Source of the DNA: Acidiferrobacterales bacterium
GTDB taxonomy: Bacteria > Pseudomonadota > Gammaproteobacteria > Arenicellales > JAJDZL01
Direction of reading: 5' to 3'
Assembly (NCBI GenBank): GCA_028820695.1
Contig: JAPPIB010000020.1
Span: 1 to 64,000, forward strand
Length of the DNA: 64,000 bases
Under the pieces are notes generated by a model. It did not search any database. It had not been told where the DNA came from and saw only the letters and a list, made by a program, of their open reading frames with translations. Positions 21,393 to 58,028 of this stretch are shown piece after piece; within the stretch, counting starts at the first letter, position 1, and each line of letters opens with the position of its first letter. The position numbers were made by a program, and so were the translations under genes.

Positions 21393-21397
21393 ATCCT

Positions 21398-21480
21398 GAT
21401 TCCCTACGCCAGCATAATCTGGATCAGGTTCAACGGGTTGGTAGATTCCAACGTCTCAGCCCTTGCGGGCACCCCGTCAA
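21398..21480 (-). promoter_or_regulatory. TPP (THI-element) riboswitch
   Basis: Read on the minus strand the element begins ACGGGGTGCCC, continues through GGGCTGAGA, then ACCCGTTGAACCTGATCC and GATTATGCTGGCGTAGGGA. These are the conserved P1/J3-2, CUGAGA pyrimidine sensor and GAACCUGAUC helper-sensor blocks of the thiamine pyrophosphate aptamer. It lies in the leader of thiM-thiE-thiD-dctP-thiZXY, so TPP should repress both synthesis and precursor uptake. Confidence 0.97.
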
Positions 21481-21492
21481 GATGTAAGGACT

Positions 21493-21501
21493 ATTTTAGC
21501 A
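21493..21501 (-). promoter_or_regulatory. Extended -10 promoter of the thi operon
   Basis: The minus strand reads TGCTAAAAT (21501 down to 21493), an extended -10 element. Transcription would begin near 21486, a few nucleotides before the 5' edge of the riboswitch, as expected for a leader riboswitch. It lies only about 20 bp from the divergent enolase-superfamily gene. Confidence 0.6.
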
Positions 21502-21522
21502 CTGAGTTTCGAGTCTGCGCAG

Positions 21523-22620: not shown

Positions 22621-22629
22621 GAAGCGCGA

Positions 22630-25121: not shown

Positions 25122-25172
25122 TCAGGCAAGTGTTCATCAAATGGCTGACTTTGGTGACTTGATTTGGAACCT

Positions 25173-25199
25173 GGCTCCTCCCTGCCTCAGGGAGGAGCC
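25173..25199 (+). promoter_or_regulatory. Perfect 12-bp hairpin between binding-protein and ATPase genes
   Basis: GGCTCCTCCCTG (25173-25184), loop CCT, then CAGGGAGGAGCC (25188-25199) form a perfect GC-rich stem. There is no T-run, so it is unlikely to be a full terminator. Such hairpins after binding-protein genes protect the upstream mRNA and raise the ratio of binding protein to membrane components. Confidence 0.7.
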
Positions 25200-25271
25200 T
25201 GTATGAAAATTCCCGCGATGATCAGCCTGATCCCTTTTGAAAGAAAGATGTTCGCAACCGGCACTTGATTT

Positions 25272-26327
25272 ATGTCGGCTCAAGACTCATCCGCTTCGCA
25301 ACCCAAGACCATAATCAAGTGTGAGTCTGTCTACAAAATATTTGGCAACAATGCCAAATCGATGCTTGAACAGTCCGATGGAAAAGTAGAAAGCGACAAG
25401 TTTCTCGAGGCCGGACTGATTGTCGGCGTCAATAACGTGTCTTTAGAGGTCTACAGCGGAGAGCTGGTGGTGATCATGGGACTGTCAGGGTCAGGAAAGT
25501 CGACGCTGCTGCGCTGTATTTCCCGCTTGACCGATGCGACCGCTGGGAAAATATTTATTGAAGGTCAGGACCTGCTGGCTCTTGGCCGCAAGCAGCTGAT
25601 TGAACTTCGCCGCAAAAAAATGGGCATGGTTTTTCAGTCGTTCGGTCTGCTTCCCCACAAGACGGTACTGGAGAATATAGCCTTCCCGCTCCAGGTCAAG
25701 GGAAGCAAAACCAGGGACAGTGTTGAACGAGCCTCTGAGATGATTCAGCTGGTTGGACTTCAGGGTCGGGAAAATTATTTTCCGAGAGAGCTTTCCGGCG
25801 GTCAGCAGCAACGAGTGGGTATCGCGCGTTCGCTCGCCGCAGAGCCTGACATCTGGTTTCTGGATGAACCGTTTTCCGCCTTGGACCCCCTCATCCGCAA
25901 GGAAATGCAGGATGAGTTTCTTCGATTGCAAAAGGTTTTGAGCAAAACGATCCTGTTTGTGACTCACGATATCGACGAGGCCCTGCGTCTTGCAGACCGA
26001 ATGGCGATCATGAAAGATGGCGTAGTTGAGCAACTCGACACGCCGGCGAATATTGTGCTGAGTCCGGCGACCGACTATGTACGCAGGTTTACAAAGGACG
26101 TGCCGCGGGAGAAAGTCCTTAAAGTCGATTCCGTTATGGACCCCGCAGACCCCTCAGAGAAGCTGAGCGAGCTTAGAGTTCCGCTTGGCACCATTATCGA
26201 AACTGTCGCCGAAGACATTCTTGGACAGGACAAACCTGTCGGAGTGGCCAACTCTGACGGTGATATAGTGGGGACACTTCATTCATCCCATGTACTGAAT
26301 GTCCTGTTCGGAGAACGGTCCGACTGA
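25272..26327 (+). CDS. Glycine betaine/proline-type ABC ATP-binding protein (ProV/OpuAA family)
   Basis: The 351-residue ATPase has the ProV N-terminal lead (KCESVYKIFGNNAKSML), Walker A MGLSGSGKST (near 73-82), Q-loop VFQSFGLLPHKTVLENIAFPL, signature LSGGQQQRVGIARSLA, Walker B WFLDEPFSALDPLI and the H-loop VTHDIDEALRLADR. The C-terminal part after about 270 is shorter than a full CBS-domain tandem, so osmosensing by CBS domains is doubtful. It is 150 bp downstream of the binding protein and 27 bp upstream of the permease. Confidence 0.93.
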   Translation: MSAQDSSASQPKTIIKCESVYKIFGNNAKSMLEQSDGKVESDKFLEAGLIVGVNNVSLEVYSGELVVIMGLSGSGKSTLLRCISRLTDATAGKIFIEGQDLLALGRKQLIELRRKKMGMVFQSFGLLPHKTVLENIAFPLQVKGSKTRDSVERASEMIQLVGLQGRENYFPRELSGGQQQRVGIARSLAAEPDIWFLDEPFSALDPLIRKEMQDEFLRLQKVLSKTILFVTHDIDEALRLADRMAIMKDGVVEQLDTPANIVLSPATDYVRRFTKDVPREKVLKVDSVMDPADPSEKLSELRVPLGTIIETVAEDILGQDKPVGVANSDGDIVGTLHSSHVLNVLFGERSD

Positions 26328-26354
26328 ACCCGCGCGGACCGGCTACACTGTGTG

Positions 26355-28418
26355 ATGGCAGCACGCTTTCAGAAACACCCCAGGCTCTATCAGTTCGGTC
26401 TTGTGCTGGCGGTGTTCTTTTTGCTTTGTTTTTCAATCTCTCCTGACGAATCCAATATTCTTTGGCGTCTGCCGCCGCTATTGAAAAGCATCCCGACGAT
26501 CATTAACGATGCTGTGAACCATCTGATGTTTGACTGGATGCCGGTTCAGGTGTACGACCCGGTTATCGAAGACTATGAAGAAAAGCCGCTCTTCAGGGAA
26601 TTTACGCGTTCTGTATCCAGTGGATTTCTGTTCGTCATCAACTTTCTGCGAGAAATCATTCTGGGCGGTAACAAAACAGTTGTTGTGTTCACCAGTTGGG
26701 ATTTCATCAACGAGAATCCGTGGGCGCGGCTGCCGGCCATTCCATGGATTGTGATCCTGGGCTGGGCCGTGATTCTGGCATACAGGCTGCAAGGGAAGGG
26801 ACTGGCTGTTCTAGCGGCACTGTGCACCGTGTACATCGCGCTGTTCGGACAGTGGAAGCCATCGATGGAAACGTTGTCATTTGTTTTGATCGCAGCACCA
26901 GTATCGGTCGTTCTCGGTATCGTTTTGGGTATCTGGGCCTATCGAAACCGGTTCATTGAAGCAGCGCTGAATCCGATTCTGAATGTCGCACAAACCATGC
27001 CGCACTACTCATACCTGGTTCCGGTCATCGTGCTTTTCGGTGTCGGAGATCACGCTGCGGCGATTGCAACCATCGTGTTTGCCACGCCGCCGATGGTTCG
27101 ACTGACTCTGCTGGGACTGAAAATGGTACCCGGTGATGTTGTTGATGCAGGCATGATGAGCGGTTGTAACGGGTGGCAACTGATGTTCCGGGTGCTGATT
27201 CCCACTGCAAGACGAGATATTCTGATCGGCGTCAACCAGGTGGTCATGCAATGCCTTGCGATGACCGTCATCGCTTCATTTATCGGCGCCCAGGGTCTGG
27301 GATCCAATCTTATGATTGCACTGAACTCGCTGAAGGTCGGTACCGGTATCGAAATCGGGATTTGCATCGTCGTAATCGCGGTGGTGCTGGACAAAATGTC
27401 ACTGGCTTGGGCGAATAAGCAGACGGACTACTTTGCCAACCTGTCTTTTGTGCGGCGACACAAGTATTCGCTGGCCGCCGCCGCAGTCTTTGTTGCCGGC
27501 TGCCTGCTGGCATACCTGGGCAGTTTGATTTTTAAGGACGGGTTCAATTATTTGTATATCGTTCCGCACAACAAGGGGATTACCACCGCACCCTACTGGC
27601 AATCTGCTGTGGACTGGACTTGGGATACATTCTTTTTCACGCTGAAGGGATTCAATGAGTTCTTGATCACGAAAGTGCTGGTGCCCATGAAAAACACCTA
27701 CCTTGCCATGCCCGTTGCGGCAACGTTCGTGCTCATGATGGGGGTGGGTTACATTCTGGCGGGCATACGCTCAGCGCTCATCATTGGCGGATTCTTGCTG
27801 TTCATTGCCTTGTCGGAATACTGGGACAGGGCCTTGATTACTGCCTACATCACCTCTTTTGTAGTGATTGTTTCGGTTGTTCTTGGTGTGAGTCTAGGAT
27901 CGGTCTGTGCACAGAGTAATCGCGCCAGCAGGTTCATTCTGCTGATTTGCGACTTCCTTCAGACCTTTCCGTCATTCATCTATCTGATACCGGTGATTAT
28001 GCTTTTCGGCATCACCGACACCTCGGTCATCATTGCCGCAATAGTCTATGCGACCGTTCCAGCTACGCGCTATACGGTCGAAGGTCTAAGAAGCGTCCCG
28101 TCCGTACTGCATGATGCAGGCTCCATGATGGGTGTATCGCGTTTGCAAAGGTGGATATCCATCGAGCTGCCCCTTGCATTTCCGCACATTATGCTGGGTG
28201 TGAATCAGACCGTGATATTTGCTTTATTCATGGTCATCATTGGTGCCTTTATCGGCACCACCGACCTCGGACAACTCATCCTCAAGGCCATTTCCGATCC
28301 GCGGGGCACGGGGATCGGACTGACGCTGGGACTTTGTGTTGCCTTTATTGGACTTGCTGTTGATCAGATCATCCGTACCTGGGCAAACGAACGCAAAAAA
28401 GCACTCGATTTAAAGTAG
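26355..28418 (+). CDS. Double-length ABC permease (two fused ProW-type domains)
   Basis: At 687 residues this is about twice a normal ProW/OpuAB permease. It has two membrane domains in tandem, each with its own coupling-loop sequence: VVDAGMMSGCNGWQLMFRVLIPTA (about 260-285) and VLHDAGSMMGVSRLQRWISIELP (about 580-605). Each domain repeats the motif PxxxYLxPVIxLFG (MPHYSYLVPVIVLFG and FPSFIYLIPVIMLFG). The fusion would supply both membrane halves of the importer as one chain. A poorly conserved linker with extra helices (about 370-470) joins them. ATG 26355 is used; GTG 26352 directly precedes it. It belongs to the preceding binding protein and ATPase. Confidence 0.9.
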   Translation: MAARFQKHPRLYQFGLVLAVFFLLCFSISPDESNILWRLPPLLKSIPTIINDAVNHLMFDWMPVQVYDPVIEDYEEKPLFREFTRSVSSGFLFVINFLREIILGGNKTVVVFTSWDFINENPWARLPAIPWIVILGWAVILAYRLQGKGLAVLAALCTVYIALFGQWKPSMETLSFVLIAAPVSVVLGIVLGIWAYRNRFIEAALNPILNVAQTMPHYSYLVPVIVLFGVGDHAAAIATIVFATPPMVRLTLLGLKMVPGDVVDAGMMSGCNGWQLMFRVLIPTARRDILIGVNQVVMQCLAMTVIASFIGAQGLGSNLMIALNSLKVGTGIEIGICIVVIAVVLDKMSLAWANKQTDYFANLSFVRRHKYSLAAAAVFVAGCLLAYLGSLIFKDGFNYLYIVPHNKGITTAPYWQSAVDWTWDTFFFTLKGFNEFLITKVLVPMKNTYLAMPVAATFVLMMGVGYILAGIRSALIIGGFLLFIALSEYWDRALITAYITSFVVIVSVVLGVSLGSVCAQSNRASRFILLICDFLQTFPSFIYLIPVIMLFGITDTSVIIAAIVYATVPATRYTVEGLRSVPSVLHDAGSMMGVSRLQRWISIELPLAFPHIMLGVNQTVIFALFMVIIGAFIGTTDLGQLILKAISDPRGTGIGLTLGLCVAFIGLAVDQIIRTWANERKKALDLK

Positions 28419-39518: not shown

Positions 39519-40508
39519 TCAGGTTGTGGCGAGCAGCACGATAGTTGACTTTACGATGTCATCGACCGTTGCGCCTCGGGACAGATCGCTGATCGGTTTT
39601 GCAAACCCCTGAAGAATCGGGCCGATCGCTTGGGCGCCCGCGAGATACTGGGCGATCTTGTAACCGATATTTCCAGAGTTCAAGTCCGGGAAAATGAGCA
39701 CATTGGCCTGGCCAGCCACTTCACTGGCGTAGTCGACTTTCAATGCAGCCACTCTCGGATTTATCGCCGAGTCGAACTGGAACTCACCGTCAACCAGCAC
39801 GTCGGGATTCTGTTTGCGAACCAGCTCGACGGCCTCGGTCACCTTGTCCACTTTTTCGTGGCGCGCGCTGCCCTTCGATGAGAACGACAACAAGGCAATT
39901 CTCGGCTCATCCTCTAGCAATTTTCTGGCATTGGATGCGGTGGCCAGCACAATTTCCGAAAGCTGGACGGCTGTTGGGTCGATATTGACGGCGCAGTCGG
40001 CAACAATCAGTGTCCTCGGTAGACTGTCGGCTGTCGCCGGTACCAACAACACAATGTAGCTCGACGCGGTAGTCACATCAGCCGGCGTGCCAATCATCTT
40101 CAACCCGGCCTCAATCACACGGGCGGTGGGTATTGATGCGCCGGCGATCAGCGCATCTGCGTCACCGCAACGCAACATCATTGTTCCGTAGAGCAGGGGA
40201 TTTTTCATCATCTCCCTCCCTTCGGACAAACTGACTGGACGTCTGAGCCGGGTACAGTCAACCGCATAACGCTCCGCGTCGTGCCGGTTTTGCAAAGGAT
40301 CGGCAATCTCAATCCCCTGCAGGGCGACGTTGCATGCACTGGCAAGCGAACGGACTTTCTGTTCCTCTCCGGTCAGGACTGGAACCGCGATTTTCTGCGC
40401 CGCCAGTATGGCAGCGGCACGAATTGCCCGCTCATCTGTAGCGTCAGCTAAAACAGCGACACGCGGTCTTTGTTGCGCCAGACGCGTCAGTCGATCAAGA
40501 TCACTCAC
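39519..40508 (-). CDS. pta: Phosphate acetyltransferase
   Basis: Pta converts the acetyl phosphate made by Xsc to acetyl-CoA. The 329-residue protein is the short, catalytic-domain-only type, with GTMMLRCGDADALIAGASIPTA near 108-130, VLADCAVNIDPTAVQLSEIVLATA in the middle and PDLNSGNIGYKIAQYL near the C terminus; these are phosphate acetyl/butyryltransferase landmarks. It starts with GTG 6 bp downstream of the xsc stop, which fits the xsc-pta arrangement found in taurine degraders. Confidence 0.93.
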   Translation of the reverse strand: MSDLDRLTRLAQQRPRVAVLADATDERAIRAAAILAAQKIAVPVLTGEEQKVRSLASACNVALQGIEIADPLQNRHDAERYAVDCTRLRRPVSLSEGREMMKNPLLYGTMMLRCGDADALIAGASIPTARVIEAGLKMIGTPADVTTASSYIVLLVPATADSLPRTLIVADCAVNIDPTAVQLSEIVLATASNARKLLEDEPRIALLSFSSKGSARHEKVDKVTEAVELVRKQNPDVLVDGEFQFDSAINPRVAALKVDYASEVAGQANVLIFPDLNSGNIGYKIAQYLAGAQAIGPILQGFAKPISDLSRGATVDDIVKSTIVLLATT

Positions 40509-40513: not shown

Positions 40514-42265
40514 CTATACAAATGACTTGTATTTATCGAGATGTCGCACGGGCTTGCTCAGCGCATCCCGTCTAAAGGGATCTCCAAGTTCTCGGGTACA
40601 CATCACTTCGATCACCGTGGTCTTGCCTTCGTTCTGTGCCTCGCAGGCTTCGCGAAGCGCATCACCGACCATATCAAGATGATCAACCACGATACCCTCA
40701 GCCCCCATTGACTTGGCGATGCCAGCCCAGCTGGGATTGTCGAGATCGACACCCTCAAAACGGCGTCCATAGAAATCGACCTGGTTCTTTTTCTCCGCTC
40801 CCCACTGTCGATTGTTGAATACCACCGGGGTGACAGCAATATTTTCCCGGACGCAGGTAAGAATCTCACCCATGCTCATTGCCCAGGCACCGTCACCGAC
40901 GTACGCGATCGCTGCCCGTTGCGGTGCTGCTGTCTTTACGCCCATGACAGTCGGAAACGCATAACCGCAGTTGCCGAAACTCATTGCCGCAAAGAAACTT
41001 CTCGGTTCCTCGAATCTCAGATAGCTGTTGGACACAGAACAGATATTTCCGATGTCGGTTGAAACCGTCGCATCGGACGGTGTGGCCTTTTCAAGCTCCC
41101 GGAGCACCTGCCGCGGATGGAGCATTCCCGCATCTTCCTTTGACACCAGCCGGCTCCACTCATCGACTTCTTCGGACCAACTATTCAGCTCGGATTCCCA
41201 AGACTGCTTCTCGCCGGCGATCTCCTCAAGACGTGCATCCCGATTTTTCAGACAAGCAACCTGTTCGCGGTTCCTGACGCGTTCGAGCAGTGCTGAAGCC
41301 GATTCGCCTGCATCACCACAGATACCGACTGCAATTTTCTTCACCAATCCGATCTTGCGGTAGTCAACATCGACCTGGATGATCTTGGCGTCTTTGGGCC
41401 AGTAGTCCATACCGTGCTGGGGAAGGGTGCCGAAGGGTCCCAATCGCGTACCCAGGGCGAGCACCACGTCCGCCTTGGAGATCAGTCGCATCCCAGCCTT
41501 CGACCCCTGATATCCGAGCGGTCCGCACCACAGCTTATGGCTGGCGGGAAACGAATCGTTGTGCAGGTAACTGTTGACGACGGGTGCTGACAGGTATTCG
41601 GCAAGTTCGACACACCCTTTCACCGCGTCGCCCATAATCACACCACCACCTGCCAGGATGACAGGAAATTCGGCTTCGGCAAGAAGACGCGCCGCGTCGT
41701 CCAGTGAATTGGCGCCACCGGCACCGCGTTCAATCACCTGCGGTTGAGGGACTTGTACGTCCACATCCCCATAGAAATAATCGCGGGGAATATTCAATTG
41801 TGTCGGTCCGCGTTCGGCCATGGCCATGTCAAAGGCACGGGCGGTTAACTCTGCCATTCGCCCGGGGCCGCTGACATGGGCCTGATACTTGGTTATCTTG
41901 GAGAAAATGGGCAGCTGTTCAGTTTCCTGAAATCCACCGAGTCCCATTGTGTTGCTTCCGGTTTCAGGTGTGATTGCCACAACCGGCGAATGCGCCCAGT
42001 AAGCGGCGGCGATCGCGGTGACGAAATTTGTGATGCCCGGACCGTTCTGTCCGATGCAGACACCGTGCCGACCGCTTACCCTGGCGTAGCCATCAGCCAT
42101 GTGCGCCGATCCCTGTTCATGTACCGTGGGAATAAAGCGGATTCCGGCGGCTGGAAAAATGTCCAGCGCGTCCATGTAGGCGGAACCGACAATTCCAAAG
42201 ACGTCGGTCACGCCGTAGGAGGCGAGTGTTTCGACAAACGCTTCGCTTGATGTCATTTTTGGCAT
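40514..42265 (-). CDS. xsc: Sulfoacetaldehyde acetyltransferase
   Basis: Xsc cleaves sulfoacetaldehyde with phosphate to acetyl phosphate and sulfite, the desulfonation step of taurine and related C2 sulfonates. The 583-residue protein is a thiamine-diphosphate enzyme: the activating Glu lies in VHEQGSAHMADGYARVSGRHG, the diphosphate/Mg site in YVGDGAWAMSMGE followed by FNNRQWGAEKKNQVDFY. The AEKKNQVDFY stretch distinguishes Xsc from acetolactate synthases. It is downstream of ald (50 bp) and upstream of pta, all on the minus strand. Confidence 0.95.
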   Translation of the reverse strand: MPKMTSSEAFVETLASYGVTDVFGIVGSAYMDALDIFPAAGIRFIPTVHEQGSAHMADGYARVSGRHGVCIGQNGPGITNFVTAIAAAYWAHSPVVAITPETGSNTMGLGGFQETEQLPIFSKITKYQAHVSGPGRMAELTARAFDMAMAERGPTQLNIPRDYFYGDVDVQVPQPQVIERGAGGANSLDDAARLLAEAEFPVILAGGGVIMGDAVKGCVELAEYLSAPVVNSYLHNDSFPASHKLWCGPLGYQGSKAGMRLISKADVVLALGTRLGPFGTLPQHGMDYWPKDAKIIQVDVDYRKIGLVKKIAVGICGDAGESASALLERVRNREQVACLKNRDARLEEIAGEKQSWESELNSWSEEVDEWSRLVSKEDAGMLHPRQVLRELEKATPSDATVSTDIGNICSVSNSYLRFEEPRSFFAAMSFGNCGYAFPTVMGVKTAAPQRAAIAYVGDGAWAMSMGEILTCVRENIAVTPVVFNNRQWGAEKKNQVDFYGRRFEGVDLDNPSWAGIAKSMGAEGIVVDHLDMVGDALREACEAQNEGKTTVIEVMCTRELGDPFRRDALSKPVRHLDKYKSFV

Positions 42266-42315: not shown

Positions 42316-43437
42316 TCAGCCCATATCCAGAATTTGCTCAACTGGCGTGTAATCGTAATTCAGGCTGGAGGCGACTTCGCTGTGCGTGATCTTTCCGTGA
42401 CACACGTTGAGTCCGTTCAACAGATGCGGGTCACGTCGGAGTGCCTCTTTATACCCTAAATTCGCAATGCTCGTGGCAAAAGGTAATACGGCGTTATTCA
42501 ACGCGTAGGTGGATGTTCGCGGAACCGCACCGGGCATGTTCGCGACGCAATAGTGTGTAATGCCATGCACGTCATAGGTCGGGTTCGAATGCGTGGTCGC
42601 CCGAGAGGTCTCAAAACAGCCACCTTGATCGATTGCAACGTCCACCAGCACCGATCCGGGTCGCATGGCCTTTACCAGCTCTTCCGTGACAAGACGGGGA
42701 GCGGTCGCACCGGGTATCAGTACCGCACCGATGACAAGGTCAGCCTCGGCTACGTGTTTTTCCAGCGTGCTTCTCGTTGAATACACGCCATTGGTGGAGC
42801 GACCGAACTGCTGCCAGTGCTCGTCAAGCACGCGGACATTGCGATCGAGAACGAACACGTCTGCACCCATACCGACAGCGATGTGTGTGGCATGCGTGCC
42901 GACCACACCGCCACCGATGATCACAACCTTGGCAGGTTCCACACCGGGCACACCCCCAAGCAGGATGCCGGTCCCGCCGTGTGGTCGCTCAAGGCACCAG
43001 GCACCTTCCTGTATCGCCATCCTTCCCGCCACTTTTGACATGGGAGCCAGAAGCGGCAAGGCACCGCTATCGTCGGTTACGGTCTCGTAAGCGATGCATA
43101 CGGCACCGCTGGCGACGAGGTCTCGCGCCTGATCAGGATCCGGTGCCAGGTGCAGATACGTGAACAGAATCTGATCTTCCCTGAGCATTGCCCTTTCCGG
43201 GGCAAGCGGCTCCTTGACCTTGATGATCATGTCGGCACTGTCAAATACCTCCTTTGGAGTTCCGACAACTTGTGCTCCGGCTGAACGGTAATCGTCATCA
43301 CTGGCACGGATACCCCCGCCAGCGTTTGTCTCAACTACGACGCTGTGCCCGTGAGCGACAAATTCCTGCACATTGCCGGGTACCAATCCGACCCGGAATT
43401 CGTCGGTTTTTATCTCCTTGATCACTCCGATTTTCAT
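42316..43437 (-). CDS. ald: Alanine dehydrogenase
   Basis: Ald deaminates L-alanine to pyruvate and ammonium with NAD+, recycling the amino acceptor for the taurine aminotransferase. The 373-residue protein has MKIGVIKEIKTDEFRVGLVP at the start, KVKEPLAPE (catalytic Lys region), the Rossmann motif VVIIGGGVVGTHA and AIDQGGCFETSRATTHSNPTY. Both are standard for bacterial Ald. It heads the minus-strand ald-xsc-pta block and diverges from the aminotransferase gene. Confidence 0.95.
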   Translation of the reverse strand: MKIGVIKEIKTDEFRVGLVPGNVQEFVAHGHSVVVETNAGGGIRASDDDYRSAGAQVVGTPKEVFDSADMIIKVKEPLAPERAMLREDQILFTYLHLAPDPDQARDLVASGAVCIAYETVTDDSGALPLLAPMSKVAGRMAIQEGAWCLERPHGGTGILLGGVPGVEPAKVVIIGGGVVGTHATHIAVGMGADVFVLDRNVRVLDEHWQQFGRSTNGVYSTRSTLEKHVAEADLVIGAVLIPGATAPRLVTEELVKAMRPGSVLVDVAIDQGGCFETSRATTHSNPTYDVHGITHYCVANMPGAVPRTSTYALNNAVLPFATSIANLGYKEALRRDPHLLNGLNVCHGKITHSEVASSLNYDYTPVEQILDMG

Positions 43438-43686
43438 GGGTTGAAATTCCTTTTTTCTGACCTGTAAAACAAAATGAATAATAGGTGAATATGATAGTGT
43501 ATGTTGATTTTTTCAAGAGTCTTTATTGCTTGGTTTCGTACCCTGTTTCGACTGAAAAACCGGCTTGCCGCGATCGTGTTGACTGTAACACTCAAACCTG
43601 TAAAATAACACCTGAAACCGCTTTGTCAGCGGTTGCAGATGACTTCAACACCGATTCACCCATTACGAATTTCGAGGCCTGTATTC
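43438..43686. promoter_or_regulatory. Divergent regulatory region between ald and aminotransferase genes
   Basis: The 249-bp region contains a candidate promoter for the aminotransferase gene, TTGACT-N16-TAAAAT (43579-43606). ACCTGTAAAA occurs twice as a direct repeat (near 43461 and 43596), once on each side, which would suit a shared regulator of the two transcription units. No regulator gene is in the window. Confidence 0.4.
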
Positions 43687-44988
43687 ATGCGACTGGAAAT
43701 GGATAATTTATGGATGCCCTTTACGAGCAATCGAGATTTCAAGGCCGACCCGCGATTGATATCTCACGCGAAAGGTGTCTACCTCTACACACCTGAAGGC
43801 AGACAGATCATTGATGCGTCGTCCGGACTGTTCTGCTGTGCCGCAGGACACAGTCGGGACGAAATCGCGACTGCCGTTTACCGCCAGTTGAATGAACTCG
43901 CGTATTCCGCCCCATTCCAACTGGGACACGAGCACTCCTTCGAGCTTGCCCGTCGCTTGGCCGAACTGACTCCGGAAGGCATGGATCGAGTCTTTTTCGT
44001 CAATTCCGGCTCCGAATCCATCGATACTGCGATCAAGATCGCACTCGCCTATCACTACGCCAGAGGTGAGGCACAGCGTCAGCGCTTGATCTCGCGCGAA
44101 AGAGCCTACCATGGCGTCAACATCGGAGGTACCGCGCTCAGCGGCATGGTGAAGAACCGACAGGGGTTTGGGTTGACCATGCCGGGAATAGCCCATATGC
44201 GTCACACTTGGCTGGCTGAGAATCGCTTTGAGCGCAATCAACCGCAAAACGGCGCCTATCTGGCGGACGATCTGCAACGTCTGGTCGACAATTATGGTGC
44301 CGACACAATCGCCGCCTGCTTCGTAGAGCCGGTCGCCGGCTCGACCGGCTGTCTGGTTCCTCCGCAGGGATATCTGGAAAGATTGCGGGAAATCTGCGAC
44401 AACAACGGTATTCTGCTTGTTTTCGATGAAGTCATTTGCGGATTCGGCCGAACAGGTGAGCCGTTCGGCGCACAGAGTTTTGGTGTGACGCCGGATCTGA
44501 TGACCCTGGCCAAGGCGCTGACCAATGCCGCGCTGCCGATGGGTGCGATCGTGGTCGGCAGACATGTATACGATACCATTGTGGATGCAGCACCGGACAA
44601 GGCGATTGAGCTGTTTCATGGTTACACGTATTCAGGACATCCCGCGGCCTGCGTTGCCGGGCTTGCGACACTTGATATCTATCGCGATGAGAATCTGTTC
44701 GAGTGCGGCCGTCAGTTGTCAGGCTATTTTCAGGACTCGGTGTTCGCACTTCAGGAACATGATGTTGTGACGGATGTGCGGGGCTTCGGGATGATGGCAG
44801 GTATCGATGTGAGACAGGACGGCGCCCCGGGCAACGCTGGGCTGACGATACAAAAGCAGCTTTTTCATTCGGGACTGCATGTGAAGGCAACCGGTGATGC
44901 GCTGATTGTCGCGCCGCCTCTGGTCTCAACCAGAGCGCATATCGACGAGATCTGTGAAAAGTTTGCCGGCGTATTCAAAGCCTGTTGA
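43687..44988 (+). CDS. Class III omega-amino-acid:pyruvate aminotransferase (taurine or beta-alanine)
   Basis: A PLP-dependent class III aminotransferase of 433 residues. The start MDNLWMPFTSNRDFKADPR-like region (near 5-24) is characteristic of beta-alanine:pyruvate transaminases. The cofactor region is VFDEVICGFGRTGEPFGA, with the Schiff-base Lys in LAKALTNAALPMGA. The genomic setting with ald and xsc points to taurine:pyruvate transamination giving sulfoacetaldehyde and alanine; with mmsA nearby, beta-alanine is an alternative. ATG 43687 is preferred because GAGG lies about 10 nt upstream; frames starting at 43633 are not supported. Confidence 0.9.
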   Translation: MRLEMDNLWMPFTSNRDFKADPRLISHAKGVYLYTPEGRQIIDASSGLFCCAAGHSRDEIATAVYRQLNELAYSAPFQLGHEHSFELARRLAELTPEGMDRVFFVNSGSESIDTAIKIALAYHYARGEAQRQRLISRERAYHGVNIGGTALSGMVKNRQGFGLTMPGIAHMRHTWLAENRFERNQPQNGAYLADDLQRLVDNYGADTIAACFVEPVAGSTGCLVPPQGYLERLREICDNNGILLVFDEVICGFGRTGEPFGAQSFGVTPDLMTLAKALTNAALPMGAIVVGRHVYDTIVDAAPDKAIELFHGYTYSGHPAACVAGLATLDIYRDENLFECGRQLSGYFQDSVFALQEHDVVTDVRGFGMMAGIDVRQDGAPGNAGLTIQKQLFHSGLHVKATGDALIVAPPLVSTRAHIDEICEKFAGVFKAC

Positions 44989-49173: not shown

Positions 49174-50478
49174 TCAGCTGAACATTGTATTGGGCAGATA
49201 TGTAGCGATGCTCGGGACGGCAATCACCAGGATAATCGCGATTGCCATCGCTAGCCAGAACGGCATGATACCTCGGAAAATGGTGTTGATCGGCACATCG
49301 GGCGCAATTGACTTTACTGCGAAAACATTGAGTCCGACTGGCGGAGATATCAGTGCCATTTCTATTACCAATACAAACAGCACCGCGAACCAGACAAGAT
49401 CAACCCCCTGACTTTGCAGAATTGGCAGCACAAAAGGAACGACCAGGACGAGAATTGCGAATCCGGTCAGAAATGTTCCGAGTGCAATGCATGTAGCAAG
49501 AGTGACAACTACAACCTCCAGGGCGGTGAAGCCTTGCGAGTCAACCCACTGGGCAAGCACTGACGTCACTTGAGTGAAACCGATGAATGTCTTGAATACG
49601 AAAGCGCCAAATACAACCAGGAAAATTGTGCCGGTAGCCTGCAGGGTATCAAGTATGACGTCCTTGATACTTGACCAGTTGAGTGTACCTCGAATCAAGG
49701 CGCTCAACAGAGTCAGGGAAGCGCCGACTCCGGCCGCCTCAACCGCGGAAAAGACGCCGAGATAGATTCCGCCGATTGTGATCAGGATTATTCCGGCAAT
49801 CCACAGGGCACGCGCTGCGAGGAGGATTCTTTCTCGAATCGGTGCGGATTCAGCGGCCTGAGGTGCGAGAGACGGATTTCTCAGTACAGTGAGCCAGATT
49901 GTGAAGATAAACAGCACCGTCAGCAGGAGCCCTGGGAAAATACCTGCAATGAACAGCCGTCCAATAGACTGTTCCGTCAGAATTGCATAGAGAACAAAGC
50001 CAACCGACGGTGGAATCAATATTCCCAGCGTACCGCCGGCTGCAACGGTGCCGGTTGAAAGTGCAGAGTTATATCGATAGCGCTGCATTTCAGGAAGACT
50101 GGCGCGTCCTACTGTGAGGGCTGAAGCAAGTGAAGAGCCTGATAACGCTGAAAAAATGGCGCATCCTACAACGGTTGTGATTGCCAGACCTCCTCGGAGG
50201 TGACCGAACCAGCTTTGGGCTGCCGCGTACAGGTCTCGACTCATGCCCGAGACCGCGGCAAGGTTGCCCATCAGAATGAACAGTGGAAAGATGATCAGGG
50301 AATAATTCGATGCCTGGCTGAAAATCTCGCTTGCCACTGCCGGCAAACTAGCCTGCGGGCGGATCAGCAATATTCCGGCAGCGCCAACAAAAATCAACGC
50401 CAATCCCACCGGCATCCGAATCAATAACAATACCGAGAGCGAGCCGAATCCTAATATTGCAATTAACGTGCCGCTCAT
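49174..50478 (-). CDS. dctM: TRAP transporter large permease
   Basis: The 434-residue large subunit of a TRAP importer, with about twelve helices. It opens LIAILGFGSLSVLLLIRMPVGLALIFVGAAGI and has the TRAP-M segments GCAIFSALSGSSLASALTVGRASLPEM and GGTLGILIPPSVGFVLYAI, which contribute to the sodium site. It is the last gene of dctP-dctQ-dctM. The transporter faces away from tauABC, and its substrate is unknown; taurine (as in TauKLM) or a carboxylate are the obvious candidates. Confidence 0.94.
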   Translation of the reverse strand: MSGTLIAILGFGSLSVLLLIRMPVGLALIFVGAAGILLIRPQASLPAVASEIFSQASNYSLIIFPLFILMGNLAAVSGMSRDLYAAAQSWFGHLRGGLAITTVVGCAIFSALSGSSLASALTVGRASLPEMQRYRYNSALSTGTVAAGGTLGILIPPSVGFVLYAILTEQSIGRLFIAGIFPGLLLTVLFIFTIWLTVLRNPSLAPQAAESAPIRERILLAARALWIAGIILITIGGIYLGVFSAVEAAGVGASLTLLSALIRGTLNWSSIKDVILDTLQATGTIFLVVFGAFVFKTFIGFTQVTSVLAQWVDSQGFTALEVVVVTLATCIALGTFLTGFAILVLVVPFVLPILQSQGVDLVWFAVLFVLVIEMALISPPVGLNVFAVKSIAPDVPINTIFRGIMPFWLAMAIAIILVIAVPSIATYLPNTMFS

Positions 50479-50504
50479 TGTGCTGTCAACTCATATGAGC
50501 ACGA

Positions 50505-50990
50505 CTATCTCCAATGAAGCAGATTGAACACGATCTGATATAGCAAAACCAGGAAATAAAAGGCCATTGATGCCGCGAGAAAGTAGTAGAAAGGCACATG
50601 TACAATCGCCAGGCTGCCGGTCACTGCCCCGCAGGGAAATCCGCACGAACCCACAGTAGCTAAAGCGTAGGCGACATAACTGACAGTTCCCGCGCCGAAC
50701 AGTCGAGCCGCAATTCCGCAGAATTGCATCACACGATTGCCTGCCATCAGCTCGATGAGATCTACGCTGACATGGGACTTGGTCCACGCGCCATATGCGA
50801 TTGATGACGCGGCAATGATCGTCAGAACCAATACTGAGATGTCCTCGATTCCATATATCGGATCGTTTATGACGTATCGAGCGATCACAGCCACATCCAC
50901 CAAGGTCATCAGGACTAACAGTGCAACACCGCCGATTACAGCGAACGACACGGCAATGAACTGAAGATATCGTTCCCAGGGTGAAAGCAT
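50505..50990 (-). CDS. dctQ: TRAP transporter small permease
   Basis: The 161-residue small subunit has four helices, beginning at LQFIAVSFAVIGGVALLVLMTLVDVAVIARYV, typical of DctQ. The segment IYGIEDISVLVLTIIAASSIAYGAWTKSHVSVDLI carries the W...H..V/IE pattern of the family's second helix region. ATG 50990 lies 7 bp after the dctP stop; a TTG at 51005 would overlap dctP. It precedes dctM by 26 bp. Confidence 0.92.
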   Translation of the reverse strand: MLSPWERYLQFIAVSFAVIGGVALLVLMTLVDVAVIARYVINDPIYGIEDISVLVLTIIAASSIAYGAWTKSHVSVDLIELMAGNRVMQFCGIAARLFGAGTVSYVAYALATVGSCGFPCGAVTGSLAIVHVPFYYFLAASMAFYFLVLLYQIVFNLLHWR

Positions 50991-50997
50991 GATTTCG

Positions 50998-51993
50998 TCA
51001 ATCAAGCCCTGATTTCATCATCGATACAATCTCGGACGCTTTCATGTCTCCTACGGTCATGTTCATAAGATCATCCAAAGTGTCCATAACCTCGGTCCTG
51101 AAACGCTCTTTCTCTGATTCCGGAATGTCGATCACCTCAACGCCTGCATCGCGAGCGTCCTGAATACCTGCCAAATCAGCTTGGTGGTAGCTGTGTGCTC
51201 CTGCAATGGCAAGTTCTTCAGTCGAAGCTGCGTCAATCCATGCGCGTTGCTGCTCACTGAGATTTTGATAGACCTGTTTATTCATCAATATAGCGAAAGA
51301 CAGCCCGGAGCCAGGAAAATACGTGGTCACGTATTTTGCTGGCTCATAAAGCTTAAACAGCCGAATGGCTGCCGGAGTGGTGAGGACCCCGTCTATTACG
51401 CCATTGGCTAAATTCTGGTGAACTACGGTAATGGGTTGCGACACAGCACTTGCCCCCACCGCCTCAACGAATCGCGCGGCCAGCTTGGATGCCACTCGAA
51501 TTTTCATCCCCTGCAGATCTTCCAATGTTCGTACTGCTTTGTCGCGGGTGATGAGAATTTGCGGCCCGCTACCGATTAATGCCAGTACTTTTGCGTCGTA
51601 CTCCGGTTCAAGCTCCTGACGGGCATTGATAAGCGCATGAGTGCATTCGACAGCGTTATCGCATACGTCAGGCAACCCCAGCAGATTAGTTTTTGGGAAC
51701 AGATCACTGGTATACCCTGGGAGCGCATAAACTATGTCTGCAACCCCACTGAGCATTATGGAGTACTGTTTTGGCGGTGACGAATTCAGCGCACCCCCGG
51801 GAAATTGCGTGACTGTGATCGTACCATTGGAAAGTTCCTCAATGTGCCTGGCGAATGGTTTGAATACCGAATCGTTAAAATGATGCTTCGGTCCCATGAA
51901 GTAGGCGAAACTCAAATTGATTTCGGTTGCCGCAACATTGCTGGTTGCCAAGGCCGCAAGCAAACAGATCAGAATCTTAAATCTAGACAACAT
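50998..51993 (-). CDS. dctP: TRAP transporter substrate-binding protein
   Basis: The periplasmic DctP-family protein of this TRAP importer. The 331-residue product has a signal peptide (about 1-22, ending SNVAATE), the N-terminal lobe with FAYFMGPKHHFNDSVFKPFARHIEELS, and the hinge/Arg region MKIRVASKLAARFVEAVGA (near 165-183), the Arg being the usual carboxylate ligand. It is the first gene of dctPQM. Presence of the Arg site favours a carboxylate or sulfonate substrate, which the sequence alone cannot separate. Confidence 0.93.
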   Translation of the reverse strand: MLSRFKILICLLAALATSNVAATEINLSFAYFMGPKHHFNDSVFKPFARHIEELSNGTITVTQFPGGALNSSPPKQYSIMLSGVADIVYALPGYTSDLFPKTNLLGLPDVCDNAVECTHALINARQELEPEYDAKVLALIGSGPQILITRDKAVRTLEDLQGMKIRVASKLAARFVEAVGASAVSQPITVVHQNLANGVIDGVLTTPAAIRLFKLYEPAKYVTTYFPGSGLSFAILMNKQVYQNLSEQQRAWIDAASTEELAIAGAHSYHQADLAGIQDARDAGVEVIDIPESEKERFRTEVMDTLDDLMNMTVGDMKASEIVSMMKSGLD

Positions 51994-52356: not shown

Positions 52357-52512
52357 ATCGCCTCTACTTGCCTGACCTTATTCGTTGAATCAATGATTTT
52401 TTTGGGATTCTTCCAGGTCAGGATGAGTCTGAAACAATACTATTGAAGGATTGAAGCCTATCAATGGTCCCGATTTACCGGGCATAATCAATAAAATCTT
52501 TTGGAGGTCAAA

Positions 52513-53478
52513 ATGAATTTAAGGAAATCTGCATGTGCAGTGATTTTGTCTATTGCCGTATCCGGTGCTGTTCAAGCTGCTGATGAGGTCAATGTCGCAT
52601 TCTTTCTCGAGTGGGCTACTCCGAATCAGGTCGCTAAAGTTGAAAAAGTCTACGACGATGCCTTGGGCGTGCCGGTCAACTGGACCAACTTTGACGCAGG
52701 CACGCAGATGACCGAAGCAATGCTTGCCGGGGATATCGACATCTCCTACAGTCAGGGACTTGCTCCGTTCATCAATGCTGTCAATGCAAATGCACCGATC
52801 AAGCTCGTCGCGATCGCTGTACAGTATCCAGCTAACGACTGTGTGGTTCGCAATGGCGAGGGCATCGATAAGACCAATGCTACGGAACTCGAGGGCAAGT
52901 CTGTCGCAGTCCCGATCGCCACCATGGCTGATTACAGCTTCAGAATGATGATGCGTGCTTTGGACGTGGATACGGATAAGATCAACGTCGTGGACCAGGT
53001 TCCGGCCGATGCTGCCGTATCACTGGCTGATGGCGCGGTTTCCATGGCCTGTGGATTTGGCGCTGACTCGATGGCGAAGATGTATGAGGTCGGCGAGCCT
53101 TTGCTTTCTGCGGCCGACAAGGAAGACGCAGGCATCATCAGTTTTGATGTTATTTCAGTGACCGAGAAGTTCGCGCAGGAGAATCCTGACATGGTGCGAA
53201 CGTTCCTCTCCGTCACCGACGAAGCGAATGCAGCATTCGCGGCCGATCAATCCAAGGTTGATGTAATTGCGAAAGATGCCGGTCTGAGCGTTGAGATGAC
53301 GCAGAATCAGATGTCTGAATTCCACTTCCCGACCAACGAAGAACAGTTGTCACAGTACTTCAATGATGGTGGGCTGGCTTCTGTAGCCATTGCAGTGGTT
53401 GGCAGTGCGTTCGCCACGGCAGAAAATCCGGCATTGGATGATTACAGTGCCGTTGTTGATACTTCTTTCCTGCAGTAA
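52513..53478 (+). CDS. tauA: TauA-type taurine/sulfonate ABC substrate-binding protein
   Basis: A 321-residue periplasmic binding protein for alkanesulfonates, most likely taurine. It has a Sec signal peptide (about 1-22, ending AVQAA), followed by the TauA-like LEWATPNQVAK and GTQMTEAMLAGDIDISYSQGLAPF. Sulfonate-type contacts in TauA come from such Gln/Thr-rich loops. ATG 52513 is the start, with GGAGGT 6 nt upstream. It is the first gene of tauABC; the adjacent xsc/ald/aminotransferase genes support taurine. Confidence 0.92.
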   Translation: MNLRKSACAVILSIAVSGAVQAADEVNVAFFLEWATPNQVAKVEKVYDDALGVPVNWTNFDAGTQMTEAMLAGDIDISYSQGLAPFINAVNANAPIKLVAIAVQYPANDCVVRNGEGIDKTNATELEGKSVAVPIATMADYSFRMMMRALDVDTDKINVVDQVPADAAVSLADGAVSMACGFGADSMAKMYEVGEPLLSAADKEDAGIISFDVISVTEKFAQENPDMVRTFLSVTDEANAAFAADQSKVDVIAKDAGLSVEMTQNQMSEFHFPTNEEQLSQYFNDGGLASVAIAVVGSAFATAENPALDDYSAVVDTSFLQ

Positions 53479-53590: not shown

Positions 53591-54394
53591 ATGAGTGATC
53601 TGGTTGCCGACAATCTGGACATGCAGTTCTTCATGCCTGAAGGTGCGGTAGTCCATGCACTCAAGGATGTTTCGTTCACCCTGAAACAAGGAGAGCTGCT
53701 CTCTGTTCTCGGTCCCTCCGGTTGCGGAAAAACCACTCTGCTCAATATCGTAGCCGGATTCTTGCACCCCACTGGGGGCAGTATCTCGCTGGGCGGTAAC
53801 ATCATCGAAAAACCAGGTGTCGATCGCGGCATGGTATTTCAGCAGGGTGCCTTGTTTGAATGGCTGACTGTCGCCAACAATGTCAATTTCGGTCTTCGGA
53901 TGAAAAACGCCGATCCCAAGGAGACTGCCGAAAAGGTAGAGGAATGGCTTGATATTGTGGGACTTCAAGGGTTTGGCGGGACGCCAACCTATCAACTGTC
54001 AGGTGGCATGCAACAACGGGTTGCACTGGCCCGCTGCCTGATCAATGATCCCGATGTCATCCTGATGGATGAACCGCTTGGCGCGCTCGATGCCCTGACA
54101 CGGGAAAAAATGCAGTCACTGGTATTGAAAATCTGGAAGGAAACCGGAAAGACAATCATGATCATCACCCATTCAGTGGAAGAAGCGCTGTTATTGGGTG
54201 AACGTCTGTTTGTCATGGCACCCCGACCGGGTCGGCTGTACAAGGAATACAATCTTCCGTTCGCAGAGATGGGACTGACCGGCGATTCGCGCGAAATAAA
54301 AAATGCCGATGACTTCACACAGACCAAGGAAGAGATTCTCGCCATGATCTGGAATATGGAAGAAGAGATCATGGGCAAGGTCGAAACTTCCTGA
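53591..54394 (+). CDS. tauB: TauB-type ABC transporter ATP-binding protein
   Basis: The 267-residue ATPase of the taurine importer has Walker A GPSGCGKTTLL (near 40-50), Q-loop MVFQQGALFEWLTV, signature LSGGMQQRVALARCL, Walker B VILMDEPLGALDAL and the switch His in IITHS. The TauB/SsuB/NrtD family is clear. It lies between the tauA hairpin and the permease gene (12 bp). Confidence 0.94.
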   Translation: MSDLVADNLDMQFFMPEGAVVHALKDVSFTLKQGELLSVLGPSGCGKTTLLNIVAGFLHPTGGSISLGGNIIEKPGVDRGMVFQQGALFEWLTVANNVNFGLRMKNADPKETAEKVEEWLDIVGLQGFGGTPTYQLSGGMQQRVALARCLINDPDVILMDEPLGALDALTREKMQSLVLKIWKETGKTIMIITHSVEEALLLGERLFVMAPRPGRLYKEYNLPFAEMGLTGDSREIKNADDFTQTKEEILAMIWNMEEEIMGKVETS

Positions 54395-54406: not shown

Positions 54407-56299
54407 ATGGTTGTTGTTGGCACAATATTTGTCTGCCTGGTCCTCGCGCTGGTGTGGTCGATCTTCTATGGACGACGGGTCATACGGACTGAAAAAACCG
54501 ACGCCGTTTTCGGAAATCCCGTTCGTGCACTCGGCGGCTGGCATTGGGTTGTCTGTGGCGTGTCCAGTCTGCTCATATTCTGGTTGTGGTTTTCGTGGGA
54601 TGCAGGTCGGGCGTTTTTCCCCGGTGCGGCAAACGAATTATGCCAGGTCGCCAAGTTAAACCGGGCTGTCAATCCAATACGCTCTGCTTATCCGATCGAC
54701 AATAGATACCTGCTCGGAACCCGATTGCTGGAACGGGACTTCAAGCAGATTGAATTGCTCTACGAGTCCCTGGCCGGAGTCAATTTCAACGAGACTGACC
54801 GCAAGGAAGTGACCGAGGTCATCGATCTCATGCACAACGCACTCGAGGCACAGGCCAACTCCGAATATCTTTCTCACGACACTGTGGAAAAATTCGCCGA
54901 TGCGGCGTCCAGGATCAATCATGTCGCGAATGAATTGACTGATCCGGACTATCCTGGCCCCGCAGACAGTGAAGCATTGGAAAAAGCGCTCAGCCAGCCC
55001 GGCTGGGGCGAATCAAGTGCTGAGATTCCGGTTCTGCCAACGACTGACCGCGGGCGTGCGTTCGACGCCGCAGCCGAGGTCATGGAGGGAATCGCAGAGG
55101 ATTACGGAAAAATTCGAAACGACAGTGCGCAGATCACGGCGATGATTGCCGAGATGAGTCAGAGAATAGAGGCATTTGTCATTGACGAAAGCGGTACTGA
55201 AGTCGATGTTGAGCGGCGCGAGGAATTACTGAGTCAGGTCAAGAAGATATCGAAGCGAGTCGATAACCTGAAGGTGTTCCCCTCCGAGACAACCGACGCG
55301 GTTGAGGCCGCACTGCGTAATCTCGATGCGGCGATGGATGAGCGGCAGGGTATGCTGCGGGTTATTGACATTTGGGCAATGCCGGGGGGCGAGATATTGG
55401 CGGGCAATAACGCCTGTTCGGAACAGGGTTCCGGACGGTGGCTGCCGAAGCCTTCAGACACACTCGCAACCTTTGTATACATGGCACATCCGGACAAGGG
55501 GTATAAGGGATTTCCTCTTCTGTGGTTCAAGATGAAGCCGGTTTCTGAAATGGTTGGTTTCATTCTGCCTGACTGGATTGCGAACCTGATGCCTGGCGAG
55601 CATGCGCGCCACAACGATCAGGGCGTGATTGAGACAAGGTTCAAGGACAAGGTCTACAACATCGTCACCGGCAACTTCAACTCGTTTTCGGTACCTGTGC
55701 CGACCGGCCACATCTGGGACTCAATCATGCGAGTTCTTGCCGGTTTGTTTCTTGGCGTGATCTTGGGTGTGCCGCTGGGACTCTTTATGGGTCTTTCCAG
55801 ATTCGCCAAAGGATATTTTGACCCGTTGGTTGAGCTTTACCGCCCGGTTCCCCCACTCGCTTGGGCGCCGTTGATCCTGACTATTTTCGGAATCCAGGAT
55901 GATGGTAAGATTTTTCTTCTGTTCATGGTGGCGTTTGCGATCATGGTCATTTCGGCTCGTACCGGCGCGACCGGAACACAGTTATCGAAGATTCACGCCG
56001 CGCACTCTCTTGGCGCCTCAAGCCGACAGATTGTCCGGCAGGTCATCCTGCCGAATTCGTTACCGGAAATTCTGACCGGAATCAGGATATCAATCGGTGT
56101 CTGCTGGGGAACACTCGTTGCCGCGGAGATGCTTGCGGGGACTACAGGAATCGGATTTGTCGAAAACGTGGCCAGGAAGCAGTCAGACTATGAGATCATC
56201 TGGATGACGATCATCGTCATGGGGGTGCTCGGTCTGATTTTCGACATGATCATGCGTTTTGTGATTGACAAGACCATCCCCTGGAGAGGAAAGGGATAG
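54407..56299 (+). CDS. tauC: TauC-type permease with a large periplasmic insert
   Basis: A normal TauC has about 270-280 residues; this product has 630. An extra helix comes first (1-20). The helix at 46-64 matches TauC helix 1, and the canonical permease resumes at about 436 (IWDSIMRVLAGLFLGVILGVPLGLFMGLSR) with the coupling loop HSLGASSRQIVRQVILPNSLPE (533-554). Between lies an insert of roughly 370 residues with long helices and an abundance of Glu/Asp/Arg (215-320), which by the TauC topology must face the periplasm. It may trap substrate, hold TauA or sense osmolarity. Known sulfonate permeases lack it, as far as I can recall. It is the last gene of tauABC. Confidence 0.9.
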   Translation: MVVVGTIFVCLVLALVWSIFYGRRVIRTEKTDAVFGNPVRALGGWHWVVCGVSSLLIFWLWFSWDAGRAFFPGAANELCQVAKLNRAVNPIRSAYPIDNRYLLGTRLLERDFKQIELLYESLAGVNFNETDRKEVTEVIDLMHNALEAQANSEYLSHDTVEKFADAASRINHVANELTDPDYPGPADSEALEKALSQPGWGESSAEIPVLPTTDRGRAFDAAAEVMEGIAEDYGKIRNDSAQITAMIAEMSQRIEAFVIDESGTEVDVERREELLSQVKKISKRVDNLKVFPSETTDAVEAALRNLDAAMDERQGMLRVIDIWAMPGGEILAGNNACSEQGSGRWLPKPSDTLATFVYMAHPDKGYKGFPLLWFKMKPVSEMVGFILPDWIANLMPGEHARHNDQGVIETRFKDKVYNIVTGNFNSFSVPVPTGHIWDSIMRVLAGLFLGVILGVPLGLFMGLSRFAKGYFDPLVELYRPVPPLAWAPLILTIFGIQDDGKIFLLFMVAFAIMVISARTGATGTQLSKIHAAHSLGASSRQIVRQVILPNSLPEILTGIRISIGVCWGTLVAAEMLAGTTGIGFVENVARKQSDYEIIWMTIIVMGVLGLIFDMIMRFVIDKTIPWRGKG

Positions 56300-56507: not shown

Positions 56508-58028
56508 ATGGATATGCAAGTCAAGGAAACTCTATATCACTACGTCAACGGTAAACGGGTAGAGGGCCGCAGCGGTCGCTATGGTGATATCTACAACCCG
56601 GCGATCGGTGCTGTTGTCAGGCAGGTACCGTACGCGAACGCTGAAGAAGTCAGCAATGCGATCGATGTCGCTGCCGAAGCATTGCCCGGATGGTCCGCGA
56701 CACCGCCGGCTGCCCGTGCCCAGGTCATGTTTGCATTTCGCGAAATCATCAAAAAGAATATGGATTCCATCGCGAGGGCGGTATCCGAGGAGCATGGTAA
56801 AACCGTGGAGGACGCGAAAGGTTCCATTAGTCGAGGTCTGGAAGTTGTCGAATTCGCCTGTGGTATCCCACAGCTTCTGAAAGGTGAGATGTCCGAGCGT
56901 GTTGCAAGGAATGTCGAGAGTTATTCCATTCGACAGCCGGTCGGAGTCTGCGCAGGCATTACACCGTTCAATTTTCCGGCGATGGTTCCGATGTGGATGT
57001 TTCCGGTCGCGATAGCATGTGGAAATACCTTCGTATTGAAACCATCCGAAAAAGATCCGTCCTGTCCGCTCATGCTCGCTGAGATGATGAAGGAGGCGGG
57101 TCTGCCCGGCGGTGTGCTCAATGTGGTCATCGGCGACAAGGAAGCAGTCGACACGATTCTGATGCATCCCGGTGTCTCAGCGGTCAGTTTTGTCGGTTCG
57201 ACTGCAGTTGGCGAATATATCTACCAGACGGGCTGCAAGCATGGCAAGCGGGTTCAGGCGCTGTGCGGCGCCAAAAATCACATGGTAGTCATGCCGGATG
57301 CGGATATGAACCAGGTGGTCGATGCCGCGGTCGGTGCGGGGTATGGCTCGGCCGGTGAACGATGTATGGCAGTGTCGGTCGTGGTTGCTGTCGGAAAGGA
57401 CACCGCGGATGAGCTGGTTGAGCGACTGAAGCCACGTGTCACGGATCTGAAAATTGGACCCTACACCGACTCAGAAGCTGAAATGGGACCGCTCGTCACA
57501 CCAGAGCATTACCAAAAGGTCAAGTCTTATGTTGACCTCGGCGTTGAGGAAGGTGCGGATCTGGTTGTGGATGGACGTGATTGTTCGATCAAGGGCTATG
57601 AGGAAGGCGCGTTCCTTGGCGGGTGTCTGTTCGATAAGGTTACATCCGATATGAAAATCTATACGGATGAGATATTTGGTCCGGTACTGAGTGTCGTTCG
57701 AGTCGACAGTTATGACGAGGCTGTCAGCCTGGTCAATGATCACGAATATGGCAACGGCGTGGCGTTGTTCACAAGAGACGGTGGCTTTGCCCAGGATTTT
57801 GTATCCAATGCCAGGATCGGCATGGTGGGAATCAACGTTCCCATTCCGGTACCCGTCGCATATCACAGTTTTGGCGGGTGGAAGCGTTCACTGTTTGGTG
57901 ACCACTTCATGCATGGACCGGAAGGAGTTCGCTTTTATACCCGGATGAAGACAGTCACGGCGAGATGGCCGACTGCCATCGAGGCTGGAGCGAAGTTTCA
58001 CTTCAAACGGGGCAGCGACGACAACTGA
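56508..58028 (+). CDS. mmsA: CoA-acylating methylmalonate/malonate-semialdehyde dehydrogenase
   Basis: MmsA converts malonate semialdehyde to acetyl-CoA or methylmalonate semialdehyde to propionyl-CoA, with release of CO2. The 506-residue aldehyde dehydrogenase has GVCAGITPFNFPAMVPMWMFP, VLKPSEKDP and the catalytic Cys in GYGSAGERCMAVSV, all characteristic of MmsA. It closes beta-alanine breakdown (with the aminotransferase), and in DMSP users its homologue DddC closes the acrylate/3-hydroxypropionate route. Both ideas fit this neighbourhood; valine breakdown is the third. It is 208 bp downstream of tauC. Confidence 0.94.
   Translation: MDMQVKETLYHYVNGKRVEGRSGRYGDIYNPAIGAVVRQVPYANAEEVSNAIDVAAEALPGWSATPPAARAQVMFAFREIIKKNMDSIARAVSEEHGKTVEDAKGSISRGLEVVEFACGIPQLLKGEMSERVARNVESYSIRQPVGVCAGITPFNFPAMVPMWMFPVAIACGNTFVLKPSEKDPSCPLMLAEMMKEAGLPGGVLNVVIGDKEAVDTILMHPGVSAVSFVGSTAVGEYIYQTGCKHGKRVQALCGAKNHMVVMPDADMNQVVDAAVGAGYGSAGERCMAVSVVVAVGKDTADELVERLKPRVTDLKIGPYTDSEAEMGPLVTPEHYQKVKSYVDLGVEEGADLVVDGRDCSIKGYEEGAFLGGCLFDKVTSDMKIYTDEIFGPVLSVVRVDSYDEAVSLVNDHEYGNGVALFTRDGGFAQDFVSNARIGMVGINVPIPVPVAYHSFGGWKRSLFGDHFMHGPEGVRFYTRMKTVTARWPTAIEAGAKFHFKRGSDDN

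Follow-up and report, generated by a model that had tools for sequence, protein, structure and literature searches.

A TauC-type permease encoded in the DNA analyzed here (64,000 nucleotides of contig JAPPIB010000020.1 from an Acidiferrobacterales bacterium, hereafter the window) carries, between its first and second transmembrane (TM) helices, a conserved domain of about 280 residues that is predicted to be all-helical and very probably lies on the periplasmic side of the membrane. By direct computation the protein is the product of a single gene with a TauC core, the domain is conserved and foldable, has invariant cysteines and a single origin, and the permease is partnered with TauA and TauB in a sulfonate-related gene context. 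From these data we develop a tentative reading in which the domain would help the importer to receive its substrate-binding protein, TauA, and we weigh it against the alternatives as the relevant evidence appears.

The reading frame is one continuous gene rather than a chance fusion, given that 79 near-full-length homologues have a similar length and all carry the insert; on the equal architecture of these homologues we reject a sequencing or fusion artifact. The best NCBIfam match of the permease is TauC (NF007545), which covers residues 435–629 with an E-value of 8e-51 and a score of 173 bits, short of the cut-off of 342, the profile covering the core only, from its position 79. PF00528 (BPD_transp_1) matches residues 454–620 with 84 bits against a cut-off of 26.4, and residues 435–629 align with Escherichia coli TauC without gaps at 43% identity. 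Judged by sequence, the permease core is closest to TauC among characterized families. Whereas a normal TauC has about 275 residues and a short first periplasmic loop, this protein has 630 residues with an insertion spanning 67–434. The sequence-only reading of this DNA, which had described a TauC-type permease of more than twice the normal size, is thus borne out on both counts, by the match of the core to TauC and by a length ∼2.3 times the 275 residues of the E. coli protein. The coordinates of the permease, its parts and the associated genes are collected in Table 1.

Table 1. Coordinates of the permease, its parts and associated genes in the window and, in the last row, of Ig-like-insert permeases at two other loci
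Feature	Coordinates	Strand	Basis or remark
Phosphate acetyltransferase (Pta)	39519..40508	-	
Sulfoacetaldehyde acetyltransferase (Xsc)	40514..42265	-	TIGR03457, 931 bits (cut-off 676)
Alanine dehydrogenase (Ald)	42316..43437	-	TIGR00518, above cut-off
Aminotransferase, AptA family	43633..44988	+	NF052567, 595 bits (cut-off 500)
TauA-like substrate-binding protein	52501..53478	+	NCBIfam TIGR01729, 102.9 bits, below cut-off (304)
TauB-like ATPase	53591..54394	+	NF008421, 265 bits, below cut-off (357)
TauC-type permease with insert	54407..56299	+	ATG start, 630 aa, immediately downstream of TauB
Extra N-terminal TM helix, residues 2-20	54410..54466	+	Hydropathy; missing in E. coli TauC
Positively charged loop, residues 21-47, putatively cytoplasmic, with conserved VFGNP motif	54467..54547	+	Hydropathy, alignment
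TM1 of the TauC fold, residues 48-66	54548..54604	+	Hydropathy
Inserted all-helical domain, residues 67-345, predicted periplasmic	54605..55441	+	AlphaFold2
Cys79, invariant, predicted disulfide partner	54641..54643	+	80/80 alignment rows
Cys337, invariant, predicted disulfide partner	55415..55417	+	80/80 alignment rows
Linker, residues 346-434, conserved, starting with LPKPSD; larger than in E. coli TauC	55442..55708	+	Alignments
Permease core, residues 435-630 (TM2 onward, EAA coupling region)	55709..56296	+	NCBIfam TauC, PF00528, E. coli TauC alignment
Ig-like-insert TauC-like permeases (Ruegeria, Paracoccus; 408-421 aa)	L090:4377-5642, L091:4365-5591		Big_9

Hydropathy places TM segments at residues 2–20, 48–66, 443–461, 502–520, 555–573 and 597–615; the first of these, the extra N-terminal helix, had gone unmentioned in the earlier reading. 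The loop that follows it (residues 21–47) contains five lysine plus arginine and two aspartate plus glutamate residues, and the segment 67–442 is net negative, with 39 basic and 59 acidic residues. In plain TauC proteins TM1 is followed by an LPxP motif; here this motif is at residues 346–349, C-terminal of the helical domain, which locates the insertion in the first periplasmic loop. Cys-79 and Cys-337 bracket the domain at its base, which suggests a disulfide and hence a periplasmic location. Their surrounding motifs (NE.CQ and C.EQG) recur in all 12 further members checked, those of the SAR11 family included, and a third cysteine that is invariant across the 80 alignment rows, Cys-566, lies within a predicted TM segment. 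On the strength of hydropathy, charge and the invariant cysteines, the insert very probably stands between TM1 and TM2 on the periplasmic side. It had been proposed that residues ∼65–435 interrupt the first periplasmic loop as a charged helical domain; the location agrees with the TM pattern and charge distribution, and the description with the charge counts and an all-helical AlphaFold2 model, but the extent needs refinement, as the fold itself spans only residues ∼67–345 and is followed by the conserved segment 346–434. A cytoplasmic insert, or one produced by fusion or mis-assembly, might be entertained because the topology is deduced rather than observed, but we consider it very improbable in view of the positive loop before TM1, the net negative insert, the invariant cysteine pair, and the same length and order in the 79 homologues and in SAR11.

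When residues 66–345 were modeled alone with AlphaFold2 from 63 sequences, the prediction reached a pLDDT of 91.6 and a pTM of 0.87 and was all helical with a C-terminal hairpin, and the full-length model contained the same helices. These models point to an independently folding domain of ∼280 residues. No Pfam family matched the insert above its cut-off, the sub-threshold matches being coiled-coil-like only (e.g. GCIP_C). The matches from a profile search of the PDB were for the most part coiled coils and designed helical bundles, which we judged to be compositional, and Foldseek found no PDB match at E ≤ 0.001, the best (E = 0.013) being a designed bundle. Homology to the MalF P2 segment or the DppB scoop was likewise not detected by Pfam at its cut-off or by PDB fold comparison at E ≤ 0.001, and a viral fold library yielded no relative (best E = 0.05). 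The idea that the insert might also exist as an independent domain did not survive the search for it, as no copy occurs outside permeases in any searched genome, nor in plasmids or viral contigs. The domain is also not described in titles and abstracts on taurine permeases within the open-access literature subset that was searched. Being large, charged, helical and anchored in the membrane, with conserved distal loops but no ligand-binding family detected in it, the domain could conceivably tether the importer to an envelope component, such as peptidoglycan, an outer-membrane porin or a lipoprotein, and so place uptake near the substrate supply. This we regard as unlikely, since the Pfam search detected no peptidoglycan-binding family in the insert and no partner genes other than TauA and TauB recur beside the permease across the loci.

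A scan of genome contigs identified 80 loci, all but one of which contain a near-full-length reading frame (the frame at L057 is broken). The 79 homologues are 48–78% identical to the query, are of almost equal length, and come from both Gamma- and Alphaproteobacteria, with carriers in Leucothrix, the Granulosicoccaceae, sponge-associated Gammaproteobacteria, the Rhodobacterales and Puniceispirillum. A profile of the insert matched 65 of the 147 sampled genomes in the SAR11 family to which genome G622 belongs, 8 of 41 relatives, 8 of 337 genomes in a class-wide alphaproteobacterial sample, and 4 of 321 genomes of the window's own class. We call G622 and a second genome, G712, SAR11 by their size (1.2–1.3 Mb), their AT-richness and the exact match of each to what we take to be the SAR11 rRNA probe sequence, which matched none of four comparison genomes. 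Each genome has one copy of the insert, always inside a permease of ∼630–660 residues, shorter frames being fragments at contig edges. Between close pairs the insert has a dN/dS of ∼0.04–0.14 (ratios taken from computed dN and dS), which indicates purifying selection on it.

In a tree of the permease core, all insert-bearing sequences form one group with a support of 100/100; the sister group consists of permeases with a different insert together with some plain ones, and E. coli TauC falls outside. The insert is an old and conserved feature of single origin. The permeases of Ruegeria and Paracoccus (L090 and L091) resemble that of the window in their TauA-TauB-permease gene order and extra N-terminal TM helix, and their insert occupies the same site, between TM1 and the LPxP motif. 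Unlike the domain described here, however, theirs is shorter, matches the bacterial Ig domain family Big_9 (with a score above the cut-off in L090), and has no such cysteine pair. Two further permeases of 452–462 residues (L103 and L105) cluster with these Ig-like-insert proteins in the tree. The presence of an Ig-like insert at this site in the sister clade implies that the same loop has been extended with unrelated domains, more than once.

That the importer handles taurine is well supported as a prediction from gene content, both by the Xsc, Pta, Ald and aminotransferase genes of the window and by the neighborhoods of three other loci. Enzymes of this set convert taurine to sulfoacetaldehyde, sulfite and acetyl-CoA in established taurine biochemistry, and from its context the aminotransferase is probably a taurine:pyruvate aminotransferase. 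The TauA-like protein of the window, which is 23% identical to E. coli TauA, also has that protein as its best PDB match (6ssy, E = 3e-13). In two Rhodobacteraceae loci (L066 and L072) the insert-bearing permease gene is followed directly by genes for an aminotransferase, a MocR-type regulator and Xsc, and at L140, in a SAR11-family genome, the genes for TauA, TauB and the permease are accompanied by one for an aminotransferase that shares 54% identity with that of the window, as well as by an alanine dehydrogenase gene and a phosphotransacetylase-like gene. Downstream of the permease in this genome (L140:9834-13136) come genes resembling those for L-sulfolactate dehydrogenase and phosphotransacetylase and a homologue of histidinol dehydrogenase that may be HpsN-like; these genes hint at other C3 sulfonates as substrates. 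TauA of SAR11 reportedly binds taurine, according to a 2024 SAR11 transporter paper in Nature. For 'Ca. Taurinisymbion ianthellae', a gammaproteobacterial sponge symbiont, expression of TauABC, Tpa and Xsc has been reported (PMC10356861).

Several other genes of the window lie near or beside this system. Between the Xsc cluster and the TauABC genes is a TRAP transporter with large, small and binding subunits (49174-51993, minus strand), and the permease is followed on the same strand by a methylmalonate-semialdehyde dehydrogenase homologue (56508-58028). Farther away are a probable thiamine-precursor importer (binding protein, permease and ATPase, 15547-18129) near ThiD-, ThiE-, ThiM- and TenA-like genes (region 13944-23313), and a glycine-betaine-type ABC importer (24147-28418) whose 688-residue permease apparently consists of two tandem permease units.

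The TauA-TauB-permease gene order is common across the loci, and a single TauA is kept alongside a single permease per genome. Where the Granulosicoccaceae lack an adjacent TauA gene, an orthologue is found elsewhere in 13 of the 14 genomes. Ten loci of this family (L029, L033, L037, L047 and L051-L056), nearly all of them without an adjacent TauA gene, have response-regulator-like and histidine-kinase-like genes after the TauB and permease genes. Such neighbors, together with sub-threshold fold matches of the insert to the helical sensor domains of McpS, PilJ and TorS, would fit a role in sensing or regulation, with the domain binding taurine or some other solute and gating transport or signaling. 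We think this quite unlikely, as the two-component genes are confined to one family, with none beside the permease in the window, and the matches to the sensor domains, which we rejected as evidence of likeness, are far from significance (E > 0.1, TM-score ∼0.2).

The reading that we favor is built on the architecture of the transporter. Two copies of the permease would form the membrane part of a type I ABC importer that takes up taurine or a close sulfonate, with the TM1–TM2 insert as a putatively disulfide-closed helical domain facing the periplasm, so that each transporter would carry two copies flanking the docking site of TauA. Together, the two may make up a rigid cup or collar in which TauA is captured and oriented and which shields the entrance of the translocation pathway, and they would then serve TauA as the MalF P2 segment serves MalE and the DppB scoop serves DppA. 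We put this forward tentatively, as approaching but not reaching an even chance. It is preferred because of the MalF P2 and DppB precedents, the retention of TauA with the permease, and the pattern of conservation in the insert, which peaks at the base (residues 72–92 and 326–345, including both cysteines) and in two surface loops (residues 235–240 and 287–292), the helix bodies being variable. From the order of the helices, these loops are predicted to be distal to the membrane. Against a TauA-receiving role count the much faster evolution of the insert compared with the permease core, the equal conservation of the tip and base halves of the insert helices (p = 0.37), and the low confidence of the TM core in the full-length model as regards the orientation of the domain. 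Pairwise distances of TauA in a mirror-tree comparison, with a partial correlation of 0.58 with the core and only a weak 0.17 with the insert, likewise count against contact with TauA.

A structural collar or vestibule, which would stabilize the homodimer or protect the entrance to the pore with no specific binding of TauA, more readily accommodates this weak co-variation and is a serious rival, even though we rate it as rather unlikely. A collar would also fit the concentration of conserved residues at the base with variable helix bodies, and the Ig-like insert of the sister clade, which might mean no more than that this position accepts domains shaping the periplasmic surface. The conserved loops at 235–240 and 287–292, if their placement at the tip by helix order is correct, point instead to a possible binding site outside the base.

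Taurine, an organic compound that contains both sulfur and nitrogen, is common in seawater and in marine animals, and SAR11 is among the most abundant groups of ocean bacteria. Compared with the textbook E. coli form, the taurine importer described here has a whole additional domain, and the variant is widespread rather than exotic, being present in many of the SAR11-family genomes and in numerous other marine bacteria, both sponge-associated and free-living. A broader proposal, which we regard as possible but more speculative, is that a disulfide-closed helical domain present twice on a TauC homodimer would act as a symmetrical TauA receptor, that this would be the normal form of the taurine importer in much of SAR11 and in other marine lineages, and that it would tune capture at very low substrate concentrations. 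If the insert does help to capture TauA, it would show how importers of nutrient-poor waters are tuned, and the Ig-like insert at the same site in the sister clade offers a natural comparison for the role of such domains.

Among known systems, E. coli TauC (b0367) shares with the window permease the core, the LPxP motif after TM1 and the TauA and TauB partners, but it is a protein of 275 residues that lacks both the insert and the extra N-terminal TM helix, and the fact that it works without such a domain counts against the TauA-receiving reading. The closest solved relatives of the core in both sequence and fold, the cyanobacterial nitrate and bicarbonate permeases NrtB and CmpB, differ in having ∼280 residues and no insert of this kind. 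In MalF, the P2 segment sits between TM3 and TM4. It comprises residues 91–271, has its loops between β-strands, and contacts MalE directly (PMC3150292). Like P2, the insert would be a large periplasmic domain on a type I permease, although its predicted fold is all-helical, its position is between TM1 and TM2, and each transporter would have two copies. In DppB, the scoop connects TM1 with the helix that follows, reaches into the DppA cleft and closes off the cavity (PMC12136057). It matches the insert in position, as a helical periplasmic element directly after TM1, but has ∼30 residues (32–62) in one of two permeases, compared with ∼280 here. The suggestion that the protein represents a new design in sulfonate import therefore goes too far, both because large periplasmic permease domains are already known from MalF P2 and the DppB scoop and because the architecture is not confined to one genome and is in fact usual in several marine lineages, including SAR11. 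What is new is the insert domain itself, predicted to be all-helical, which matches no Pfam family above its cut-off and no PDB fold at E ≤ 0.001 and would join these precedents as a further kind of periplasmic extension on an importer permease.
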